A DNA stretch of 64,000 bases, taken from assembly GCF_008806775.1 (NCBI RefSeq), contig NZ_WAEM01000006.1, positions 124,001 through 188,000 of the forward strand, given 5' to 3'. Origin of the DNA: Flavobacterium luteum. Lineage in GTDB: Bacteria > Bacteroidota > Bacteroidia > Flavobacteriales > Flavobacteriaceae. The notes under the pieces were generated by a model. That model was not told where the DNA came from. It did no database searches and saw only the letters and a program-made list of their open reading frames with translations. Below are positions 2,746-30,368 of this stretch, piece by piece; position 1 is the stretch's first letter; each line of letters starts with the position of its first letter. The position numbers were made by a program, and so were the translations under genes.

Positions 2746-2761
2746 ATCATTATTTGAAGCA

Positions 2762-2858
2762 TATTCCTGCTGTTCGCTATATCTTTTTGTTGGCTTGATT
2801 GCTTCGTTCCTCGCAAAACCAAGCCAACAAAAAGGATGCCGCTGCCATCAGGGCTAGG
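2762..2858. repeat. Stem-loop element with conserved-looking flanks (dispersed-repeat type)
   Basis: A perfect 15-bp inverted repeat (2783-2797 and 2820-2834, arm CTTTTTGTTGGCTTG) encloses a 22-base loop. It is bordered by CCTGCTGTTCGCTATATC on the left and GATGCCGCTGCCATCAGG on the right. The flanks are GC-richer than the neighbouring intergenic DNA. From memory, very similar 'CGCTATATC ... GATGCCGCT.CCATCAGGGCTAG' elements occur many times in flavobacterial genomes; this window holds one copy. There is no T tract after the stem, so it is not a simple terminator. Confidence 0.6.
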
Positions 2859-2881
2859 CTTTTGGTTTTCAAAATACTTTT

Positions 2882-26774: not shown

Positions 26775-28739
26775 TTACTCCTTCACAAACTTCCCAACAG
26801 CGCTTCCTTTATCTGAAGTTAATTTAATAAAATAATTTCCTGTTTTTAAATTGGAAACATCCACTTGTTTTGTTTGCTGTGCATTTGGAATAACGAGAAT
26901 TTGTTGTCCTAGTGTATTGTAAATACTAATTGAAGAAACCACAATGTTTTTCTTAACATCAATATTCAATACTTGTTTTGCAGGATTTGGATAAAGGTTA
27001 AAGAAAGTCGAAAACTCAAAATCATTTGTACCTAAACTCTGCAATACTGAGGTAGTTGCTGTATTTGTTATAATTGGAAAATTGTAATCAAAATAAATAC
27101 TAGCGGTATTACTGAAAGAATCTCCAACGACCAAGCTTGGTTTTGTTTTGATTTTGAAAACCATATAGCCATCATTGGTTGCATCATCAAATGGCAGATT
27201 GATGTTCTCGAAGATAAACTCTACTTTGTTGGTTTCTGAAATTTTAGTTACAAAAGGATGACTTCCTTGGGTTACCACGAGTGAATTAATATCAAATTTT
27301 GAAGTATCAATAATATCTTTAACGACAACATTCTCAGCCTCAGCAGTTCCTTTATTTTCAAAACGAATAATGTAATGCACATATTTTCCCACAGCACTTG
27401 GAGCAATGGTTGCGCCCTCTAAACACGTTTTATCATTTGGGTCAAATGAATTAACTACCGTTTGATTCAATGTAAAACTATTGTCGGCTGGGGTTTCATC
27501 GGGTGAAGCACTTGTTATTCTAGCAATATATTCTAATACATCTCCGCCGTTTACAGCTGGAGTTTCAAGTGGTGAGTTGACATTAACTTTAACTTCTATT
27601 TCTCTGGTTTCAAATGGTTTTAAATCAGTAAAATTCCAAGACAAATTAGTAGTACTTTGACTAGTAGCAATTGGATTTGCTATAACAAAATCTAAAACAG
27701 CATCATCAAAAGTAAGATTTACGGAACCTGTTTGAGTTTGATTGCCTTTATTTTTGTAAACTATTTTATAAGAAGCATCAAAACCTGGTCTTGCTCTATT
27801 TATGGATAAAACGGTAACTTCTAAATCAGGATGAACACCATTTGATGTAATACAAAAATCCTGAGTAAACGGACTCGCTTGTTTTGGAAAAGTTACTACT
27901 GTTTTATTGGGAGAAATACTAAAATAACTAGAATCTTCAAGAATTGGAGTTATAGTTTTTGTACCCGCTTGAACAGGAATAAAATAATTTCCAGTTGCAT
28001 TAGCTATCATACTACCCGTGATGGTTCCGTCGGAAATGGTGAATTTCAAATTAGGAAAAACTATATCCGAAGCATCGCAACCGTTGTTATTACTGTCAAA
28101 TTTTTGACTCCCTTGAATAGTATAAAAAGTTCCTCCTGGATCAAAAGAACAATATGTATTAACATGGCAATTAGTATAACCATATTCAAGAATCATATTC
28201 CGTACATCTGGTAACTGTTTATCATTTGCGCATACATATAATAAATTCATATTTTTTGAAAAATCTAAAAAAGACACATTAATATTTGTATTTTTAATAG
28301 ACAAGCTTGTTAAATTATTATCATCACACATCAATGAATTAAGTTTCTTTTGATTACTTAAATCTAATGAAGTAAGTTGATTAGAAGAACAATATAAACC
28401 TTGAAGATTTACTAATGCAGAAACATCTAAAGAACTGATTTGATTGGAATAACAGTAAAAATGAGCTAAATTAATAAAACTCGATATTCCTTCCACGGAT
28501 TTGATATCCAACATTCTAATATTCAAAGCCCAAACATTTTCAGCTTCACTTATCTGAATTTCTCCATCATTATTGGCATCAATCTTAAAATATTTTTCCG
28601 ATAAATCTCTGGCAATTTGACCACCTGAATCTGATAATAATAAGGCCTCTTTAAAATTAGCATCAGGAATATTTACAATCTGTGCTTTTACCCCGCTAAA
28701 AAAGAATAACCCCACTACTAAAAAGTATACTTTTCTCAT
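26775..28739 (-). CDS. T9SS-exported leucine-rich-repeat protein with C-terminal sorting domain
   Basis: The 654-residue protein has a signal peptide (about 1-19). A dockerin-like acidic stretch FKIDANNDGEIQISEAE and short leucine-rich repeats follow (about 70-150: SFINLAHFYCYSNQISSLD, LVNLQGLYCSSNQLTSLD). Then come a beta-rich middle part with conserved FDPNDKTCLEG and IIRFENKGTAEAENVVVKD (DUF11/DUF7619-like repeat domain) and a C-terminal type IX sorting domain (about 580-654) with FNLYPNPAKQVLNI and LKTGNYFIKL. It is exported by the gliding-associated T9SS to the surface or medium. An array of near-palindromes lies upstream of it. Confidence 0.87.
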   Translation of the reverse strand: MRKVYFLVVGLFFFSGVKAQIVNIPDANFKEALLLSDSGGQIARDLSEKYFKIDANNDGEIQISEAENVWALNIRMLDIKSVEGISSFINLAHFYCYSNQISSLDVSALVNLQGLYCSSNQLTSLDLSNQKKLNSLMCDDNNLTSLSIKNTNINVSFLDFSKNMNLLYVCANDKQLPDVRNMILEYGYTNCHVNTYCSFDPGGTFYTIQGSQKFDSNNNGCDASDIVFPNLKFTISDGTITGSMIANATGNYFIPVQAGTKTITPILEDSSYFSISPNKTVVTFPKQASPFTQDFCITSNGVHPDLEVTVLSINRARPGFDASYKIVYKNKGNQTQTGSVNLTFDDAVLDFVIANPIATSQSTTNLSWNFTDLKPFETREIEVKVNVNSPLETPAVNGGDVLEYIARITSASPDETPADNSFTLNQTVVNSFDPNDKTCLEGATIAPSAVGKYVHYIIRFENKGTAEAENVVVKDIIDTSKFDINSLVVTQGSHPFVTKISETNKVEFIFENINLPFDDATNDGYMVFKIKTKPSLVVGDSFSNTASIYFDYNFPIITNTATTSVLQSLGTNDFEFSTFFNLYPNPAKQVLNIDVKKNIVVSSISIYNTLGQQILVIPNAQQTKQVDVSNLKTGNYFIKLTSDKGSAVGKFVKE

Positions 28740-28756
28740 AAAAATAGTTTAAAGCG

Positions 28757-28764
28757 TAAATGTA
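28757..28764 (-). promoter_or_regulatory. Possible -7 box of the T9SS protein gene
   Basis: TACATTTA on the minus strand is one base off TAnnTTTG and lies 18 bases upstream of the ATG at 28739. It would place the array 28850-29013 at about -100 to -260. Confidence 0.35.
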
Positions 28765-28849
28765 TAAAAATTAAGAAAGGAGTTCAGGGTTTCTTCTTAA
28801 AAAATCTTTCCCAACTCCATCAATCACAATATATTTTTCCATGCTAATA

Positions 28850-29013
28850 ACGTCAAGTTTGACGTCAAGGACGTGAAATTTGGCATCGCTGACGTCAAAC
28901 TTGACGTTGCTGACGTAAAACTTGGCGTTGTAGTACGTAAAATTTCACGTCCTTGACGTAAAACTTTGCGTTCCTGACGTAAAACTTGACGTTCCCGACG
29001 TCAAAGTTGGCGT
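28850..29013. repeat. Array of eight 16-bp near-palindromes with 21-bp period
   Basis: Eight units of 16 bp start at 28850, 28871, 28892, 28913, 28935, 28956, 28977 and 28998, each followed by a 5-base linker (6 after the fourth). The best units are ACGTCAAACTTGACGT and ACGTCAAGTTTGACGT, perfect palindromes of 7-bp arms around two bases; the others have one to three changes. Position 13 alternates strictly A, G, A, G through all eight units. The array is GC-richer than its surroundings. A period of 21 bp equals two helical turns, so equivalent bases face the same side of the DNA. Confidence 0.9.
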
Positions 29014-29240
29014 TCAGAGCAGTATTCATAGGAAAAGTTGGTGAATAAAAATCGTTTGCAAATTGATTTTCATGGCAAAATGCGAACAAAAACAGATTTA
29101 AAAACTCTAAATCAGTGTCAATTAGTGTTGCTACAAAACGAATCCGTTTTACTTAACTATCGGCAGACAAGTCGCTATCCAAAATTAACTGGTAGTTTTA
29201 TAAAAAAACTTTACTTTTATACTTTCAAAAAACCTGATTG

Positions 29241-30368
29241 ATGTCTAAACTTCCAAATATAAGTACTAGTATTTTTACTACTATGTCGCAAATGGCAAAC
29301 GAATACCGAGCCATTAATCTCTCACAGGGATTTCCTAATTTTCCTGTAGATCAAAAATTAAAAGACATCGTTATCAAATGGACGCAGGAAGAAATACATC
29401 AATATTTGCCCATGGCTGGCTATCCGCCTTTGTTGGAGAAAATTGCAAAACTCACTCAGGATTCCTATCAACGAAAAGTGAATCCTAGCACCGAAATTTT
29501 AATTACTGCTGGTGCTACGCAAGGCATTTTTGCTGCCATTCAAGCCTTAGTCTATGCCAATGACGAAGTGATTATTTTAGACCCAAGTTATGACAGCTAC
29601 GAATCGACTATTTTGTTATGCAATGCTAAGCCTATTCGAATTGCTTTAAATGAGGATTTTACACCCAATTGGGAAGCCATCGCAAATAGAATGAACAGCA
29701 AAACCCGAATGATTGTGACCAATAATCCGCACAATCCTACTGGCAAAATCTGGTCAGAACAGGATTATATTCAACTCGAAAAACTACTCGATTTATACCC
29801 AAATGTCATTTTACTTTCAGACGAAGTCTATGAATACATTACATTCGAAAACAAACACATTTCTATACATCAGCGCGAGAAACTTTGGCATCGAAGCGTG
29901 AGTGTTTCCTCTTTTGGGAAATCGTTTCACATTACGGGCTGGAAAATTGGCTATCTCATTGCAACAGAACAATTAATGATAGAAATTAAAAAGGTACATC
30001 AATTCCTCGTTTTCAGTGTCAACAGTATTGCTCAATATGCGGTTAACGATTATATTGATGTGGTGAAAGTTTCTGAATTGGGCGGTTTTTACCAACAAAA
30101 ACGAGATTTTTTCAGAAGTCTGATGCAAGAAACTAAATTCGAATTATTTCCCTGCGAAGGCACTTATTTTCAGGTTGCTTCCTATGGGCATTTCTCTAAC
30201 GAAAATGACTTAGACTTTGCTAAAAAACTAGTGACCGATTTTGGTGTGGCAACTATTCCGCTATCTCCTTTCTATGCAGGTGGCAAAGACGTAAAATGCA
30301 TCCGATTTTGCTTTGCAAAAGACGATGAAACTTTGATAAAAGCAGCAGAACGATTGTTGAAGATATAA
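29241..30368 (+). CDS. Pyridoxal-phosphate aminotransferase, YbdL/methionine aminotransferase type
   Basis: This 375-residue fold-type I aminotransferase has NLSQGFPNFP near the N-terminus, TAGATQGIFAAI (cofactor phosphate loop), NNPHNPTGKIW (carboxylate/PLP contact), DEVYEYITF and the Schiff-base lysine in SSFGKSFHITGWKIGY (about residue 227). E. coli YbdL, which prefers methionine and aromatic amino acids, is the closest relative by motif. The ATG at 29241 is preferred over a TTG one codon earlier. The assignment to the family is firm, the substrate less so. Confidence 0.87.
   Translation: MSKLPNISTSIFTTMSQMANEYRAINLSQGFPNFPVDQKLKDIVIKWTQEEIHQYLPMAGYPPLLEKIAKLTQDSYQRKVNPSTEILITAGATQGIFAAIQALVYANDEVIILDPSYDSYESTILLCNAKPIRIALNEDFTPNWEAIANRMNSKTRMIVTNNPHNPTGKIWSEQDYIQLEKLLDLYPNVILLSDEVYEYITFENKHISIHQREKLWHRSVSVSSFGKSFHITGWKIGYLIATEQLMIEIKKVHQFLVFSVNSIAQYAVNDYIDVVKVSELGGFYQQKRDFFRSLMQETKFELFPCEGTYFQVASYGHFSNENDLDFAKKLVTDFGVATIPLSPFYAGGKDVKCIRFCFAKDDETLIKAAERLLKI

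Follow-up and report, generated by a model that had tools for sequence, protein, structure and literature searches.

What is a row of eight short palindromes doing between a gene for an LRR protein with a T9SS sorting tail and a divergent aminotransferase-like gene of Flavobacterium luteum, and does it serve that T9SS gene, as the original prediction had it? The row, hereafter array E, lies within the window (the whole stretch of DNA analysed, 64,000 nucleotides long), where it was confirmed at the position given in Table 1. Its eight near-palindromic units of 16 bp start at positions 28850, 28871, 28892, 28913, 28935, 28956, 28977 and 28998 and follow one another at steps of 21, 21, 21, 22, 21, 21 and 21 bp, i.e. 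a period of 21 with one 22-bp step, which sets the dyads two helical turns apart as predicted. The expected single 6-bp linker is also present. In order, the units contain 7, 5, 7, 5, 7, 6, 6 and 6 complementary pairs out of 8; at least 5 pairs occur in 924 of 20,000 random 16-mers drawn from the window. The unit pattern, with up to two mismatches allowed, matches the window 23 times against 11.2 expected (shuffle maximum 20, n=100 shuffles), and the 21-bp tandem at array E is also called by TRF. At position 13 the eight units carry A,G,A,G,A,G,A,G in turn.

Table 1. Positions of array E and its surroundings in the window, and of the four other arrays of the F. luteum genome (contig coordinates).
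Feature	Position	Strand	Remark
LRR protein with T9SS sorting tail	26775..28739	-	Por_Secre_tail E 3.2e-15
Left flank common to E, B and C (5' region of paralogous T9SS genes)	28740..28849	.	
Array E: eight 16-bp near-palindromic units and seven linkers	28850..29013	.	six linkers of 5 bp, one of 6 bp
Sole 6-bp linker of array E (TGTAGT)	28929..28934	.	
Right flank common to E, B and C	29014..29480	.	includes ~240 bp of the aminotransferase-like gene
Aminotransferase-like gene, divergent neighbour	29241..30368	+	name from reading of the translation
Array A	C3:30780-30943		
Array B	C11:674090-674253		
Array C	C11:681357-681478		
Array D	C11:747614-747819		

Clustering of the pattern matches yields five arrays in the genome, and A, B, C and D carry a 6-bp linker in mid-array just as E does. 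The A/G alternation, which had been described as strict, persists in E and in the six units of C; B interrupts it (AGAGAAAG), and A and D do not show it. The 42-bp higher-order step that had been proposed along with it is borne out, with periods of 42–43 recurring at other arrays and copy C being copy B minus exactly two units, with one substitution. The arrays have spread within the genome by segmental duplication. Because both flanks of E are present in B and C, these three represent a single locus copied along with paralogous T9SS genes. The arrays of E and B are identical at 147 of 164 positions, intermediate between their flank identities of 85.5% and 93.3%, and conservation of array E is not above that of its own flanks. 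A and D have in common a left flank of ~135 bp that is 97% identical, and their arrays are 81.7% identical. Array A follows, at a distance of 77 bp, a gene whose product, a protein of ~163 residues, is unannotated, and array D lies inside an open frame (L021:7624-8010) that continues into a LuxR-type helix-turn-helix fragment. Read on the opposite strand, the first linker of E (CAAGG, window 28866-28870) becomes that of B (CCTTG, L020:7107-7111), the outcome expected of an inversion or of a template switch from one palindrome arm to the other.

The placement of array E was described correctly: it lies 111–274 bp upstream of the ATG of the T9SS-tailed LRR gene, and on its other side the divergent aminotransferase-like frame starts at 29238/29241. 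An operator array of the T9SS gene would fit the distance of ~110 bp to the start found in E, B and C alike, but these three derive from one ancestral locus, from which their positions upstream of T9SS genes were inherited, and other arrays follow genes or terminators or occupy the space between convergent genes. Nor does the supposed promoter link extend to A and D or to arrays found in other genomes, which have mixed intergenic contexts; these mixed contexts also led to the rejection of a terminator or promoter role assigned by position. Beside the aminotransferase gene of 20 relatives no array signal was found, a weak null since the T9SS gene does not adjoin it in those relatives either. 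We regard the operator reading as very improbable. A dedicated T9SS operator is not supported, and the local reading is corrected accordingly: the window array provides no evidence for such an operator. Taken as a whole, the original prediction is partly supported; the main finding, a link with a gene of no known family that lies elsewhere in the genome, was out of its reach. The locus L020 (G000:C11:667000-686000) contains a row of paralogous LRR/T9SS-tail genes, two of them preceded by a duplicate of the array together with part of the aminotransferase-like gene.

Arrays of this type also occur in other genomes. A two-unit pattern has matches in 12 of 299 Flavobacterium genomes, and among named genomes an array-end pattern matched F. 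hydrocarbonoxydans GA093 and F. dankookense; three other array-end matches (Proteus, Cohnella and an uncultured bacterium) contain no four-unit chain. A covariance model built on three units found arrays in 31 of the 299 Flavobacterium genomes, a count that includes at least one simple-sequence match (G199), in 7 of 346 genomes of the order, one of them outside the genus, and in 3 of 247 genomes of the phylum, all Flavobacterium. The arrays of F. hydrocarbonoxydans (L045, L046, L047, L048, L067, L072) often end beside a GAGTTTACACAAAAT-like motif, which we take to resemble the end of an insertion sequence, and paired arrays of this species have a spacer of ~59 bp in common.

One protein recurs among the neighbours of the newly found arrays, and in F. 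luteum it is the product of the 163-residue gene beside A, located at L019:7024-7512 on the minus strand. No other gene is a common neighbour in more than 4 of 30 gene loci. The partner gene was found in 35 of the 299 Flavobacterium genomes, one of which, G179, has four copies of it. In a sample of the phylum, 13 of the 218 genomes carry the gene, and they represent 8 of 110 genera. Gene and array occur together in 21 genomes against 3.6 expected (35 genomes with the gene and 31 with the array, of 299; Fisher 6.7e-16), a figure that ignores relatedness and is inflated by related genomes. Ten of the 31 array genomes gave no partner gene in the genus-wide gene search. When these ten and three found later were searched with a profile, 5 of 13 matched, strongly in G436 and G437 and weakly in G016, G138 and G280; three of the original ten have a weak match.

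The linkage is also seen from the gene side, where 43 of 47 gene loci were examined (two in G043, a broken copy in G153 and a distant copy in G068 were excluded). Palindrome chains of period 21/22 with a score above 4.2 are present at 30 of the 43 loci, and none of 96 control flanks, taken beside the dtd and aminotransferase genes of relatives, has one; chains at other periods are found at 1–11 of the 43. As this score favours palindromes, TRF, which is blind to them, was run to avoid such selection. Repeats of period 20–23, 42–44 or 63–65 within 900 bp were found at 34 of 43 gene loci versus 0 of 48 control loci, in counts made by hand with several rows per locus. At 24 of these 34 loci the consensus is palindromic at P<=0.05 in one row or more; the remaining 9 of the 43 have no repeat of period ~21, 42–43 or 63–65. 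At the same place beside the gene stand unrelated unit sequences, or dialects, and several gene-linked arrays were missed by the sequence searches because their units differ from those of the window. Among distant homologue loci scanned whole, 11 of 15 have a repeat. This number includes 9 of 13 outside the genus; there TRF was applied, without controls, to 13 of the 15 outside-genus loci that the profile and phylum searches had yielded, each over its whole length of ~3.4 kb. The period is the firmer trait outside the genus, since the palindromic consensus is significant in one of these nine repeats. The clearest distant locus, G741, has 25 units and a chain score of 27.0 against a null maximum of 3.9. 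For 7 of the 27 loci in this distant chain scan the gene frame was located automatically, with one error (G421); the other 20 have a whole-locus score without shuffles. The gene and the array are linked, the period is conserved and the units are replaced between lineages; the window array is an orphan, a dispersed array half of this gene-linked family.

A neutral minisatellite, in which functionless palindromic tandems arise and are kept uniform through slippage and template switching at hairpins, would explain the two-unit difference between B and C, the reverse-complementary first linkers of E and B, the A and D arrays changing faster than their flank, and an array E conserved no better than its surroundings. 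Shifts of copy number by whole units are indeed what minisatellites and VNTRs display. However, the presence of repeats at 34 of 43 gene loci and at none of the 48 controls, together with the fixed period, requires a partner-specific cause, and, unlike minisatellites, these arrays have a preferred genomic partner and hold their period over unrelated sequences. We find a purely neutral origin decidedly unlikely.

How unit sequences vary is informative about what is being maintained. The further apart two partner proteins are, the further apart their dialects tend to be (26 modules; r 0.32, reached in 1 of 5000 permutations), though this Mantel figure is inflated by related genomes. Paralogous partner genes of one genome (G013a, G013b) have separate dialects, and unrelated dialects accompany proteins that are 84% identical (G002 or G248 versus G014a), which makes a reading of the sequence by the partner protein doubtful. 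The dialect differs between genomes, yet dyad partners change together: in a 53-row alignment, whose rows are related, 60 two-sided cells were counted, and its shuffles gave 39.0 +- 4.3. The spacing and often the twofold symmetry persist and the letters do not, a pattern more in line with phased dyads or shape than with a single conserved site. In our estimate the chances are even that this is an undescribed, Bacteroidota-wide module of a small protein and a neighbouring array in which a two-turn ruler is kept while the letters are rewritten, with a dialect per gene copy and scattered offshoot arrays.

The symmetry itself may have a mutational source. In the same 53-row alignment, pairing across the linker also exceeds that of shuffles (41 versus 29.8 +- 3.7), so the symmetry may stem from template switching and not from binding; such an excess is expected if the half-sites of an array have one dialect in common. 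Out of 7 possible pairs, the mean is 5.36 within units (n=225), 5.17 across 6-base linkers (n=47), 4.91 across 5-base linkers (n=150) and 5.12 between unrelated halves of the same array (n=1362). The evidence on a hairpin across the linker points both ways: the 5-base value falls below that of unrelated halves, but the alignment beats its shuffles.

A structured RNA had been named as an alternative. The predicted folding of array E is indeed much stronger than that of its shuffles (z -8.1), a result to be expected of any array of palindromes. Mispairs on the gene strand of 31 arrays amount to 96 G.T versus 104 A.C, with no strand preference. A G.U polarity that appeared in single arrays (9:0, 14 to 2) disappeared when all 31 were read in the orientation of the gene. 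A foldback rod was suggested by the predicted fold of E, which pairs linker 1 with linker 5, but linker pairing is not general: 0 of 57 arrays exceed shuffled linker order at p<0.05. A protein-coding array (21 bp equal seven codons, and some arrays have open frames) was rejected because steps of 22, 43 and 64–65 bp break the frame. Strand-blind mispairs and linkers that pair no more than by chance favour duplex DNA over folded RNA.

The layout of the module bears on the same issue. The array is downstream of the gene in 25 of 31 modules and upstream in 6 (G124, G011a, G246, G089b and G009 are weak modules among the 31). A terminator-like hairpin with a T-run separates the stop codon from the array in 14 of 22 downstream modules, as judged by eye; seven others begin near the stop without a hairpin and one is unclear. 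In clade II (G061, G010a, G278, G232) the array precedes the gene, and the four clear upstream arrays end 60–117 bp before the start codon. Type III toxin-antitoxin loci such as ToxIN and CptIN have longer repeats and an array upstream of the gene. A comparable RNA–protein pair, with transcribed tandem hairpins bound or processed by the protein, would be in keeping with a small protein gene adjoining its cognate repeat array, with the upstream array of clade II and with the strong predicted folding. Against it, the array is mostly downstream and often past a terminator-like hairpin, neither the mispairs nor the linkers carry an RNA signal, and the partner protein matches no toxin family, including the ToxN/CptN/TenpN group, and the arrays no Rfam family. 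We consider such a pair distinctly unlikely.

The partner protein offers few clues. None of the 21 members scanned passed a curated threshold of Pfam or NCBIfam, searches of PHROGs and PADLOC returned nothing convincing, and no relative was found by sequence in the PDB; the best recurring hint is DUF6730, seen in 8 of the 21 members (best E 3.7e-4). Neither phages, nor 72,556 plasmids, nor viral contigs contain a match, and several copies reside on single-contig genomes of 3.5–5.4 Mb. A phage or plasmid origin was rejected on these grounds, the array-side search having covered one dialect.

The explanation that we tentatively prefer, although we place it somewhat short of an even chance, is a chromosomal protein–array module in which the array is probably a docking platform of duplex DNA and the linked protein is part of the complex, a role that we infer. 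Such a module would have two parts, a gene for a protein of ~160 residues of no known family and an adjoining array of 21–22-bp units, most of them near-palindromic. The array would act as duplex DNA, and dyads two helical turns apart could each receive one protein dimer on the same face of the helix. The linked protein, or a factor that it serves, may assemble on the array in a phased-dimer arrangement, by analogy with iteron or centromere arrays. Arrays away from the gene, e.g. that of the window, would be offshoots, and selection on these was not detected.

The iterons found at plasmid origins, like the centromere arrays of plasmids, consist of tandem sites about two helical turns apart beside the gene for a partner protein. 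The arrangement here is similar to that of iteron origins in its phased tandem sites of period 21–22 and its adjoining partner gene. It differs in that the arrays are chromosomal, with no match in the plasmid set, their units are mostly palindromic and replaced in sequence between close relatives, and the partner has no match to a Rep (Pfam, NCBIfam, PHROG) or Par family. In contrast to CRISPR, the linkers are 5–6 bp long and there are no long unique spacers.

REP elements and REPIN–RAYT systems (REPtrons), including CGTC-REPs, are likewise short intergenic palindromes of species-specific sequence, and a RAYT gene is likewise flanked by its own repeats, as described in PMC3733652, according to which CGTC-tagged REPs have no known transposase. 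An intragenomic element of this kind, in which non-autonomous repeats are multiplied or moved with the help of the linked protein (which would act like a RAYT, though it is none), would agree with a single- or low-copy gene that has a linked array and, at other places in the same genome, further arrays whose dialect is similar, and with the F. hydrocarbonoxydans composites, whose spacer and flank motif recur at different places. It is unlikely nonetheless. The partner protein matches no transposase family in the 21 members compared with Pfam and NCBIfam and is not a Y1 (HUH) tyrosine transposase, the F. luteum copies moved with their flanks as segmental duplications, and, unlike REPs, the arrays are tandem, with a fixed step of 21–22 bp, and few, five in F. 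luteum.

REP/RAYT, iteron or centromere, and type III toxin-antitoxin systems are the closest to the preferred protein–array module, and none agrees with it in every defining feature tested. No named repeat class among those tested accommodates a spacing that is conserved without its sequence and is linked to a single family of unannotated proteins. If the module is real, it would represent a new kind of partnership between protein and nucleic acid in bacterial chromosomes. The original prediction knew of no named element of this type, and neither array nor gene was found under any name in the literature searched, mostly outside subscription journals and including passages of PMC3733652 and PMC12306157.

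Two further features were observed near these loci. Four clade II genes (L060, L235, L236, L237) share a TGGCAY-N5-TTTGTA-like sequence 49–52 bp before the start, which presumably resembles a sigma-54 promoter; it was rejected as a general feature. A Flavo-1 RNA (Rfam), absent from the remaining array loci scanned, is located at window 2759-2859 on the minus strand (72 bits), and a further copy lies close to a gene-linked array of G179 (L214:2255-2332).
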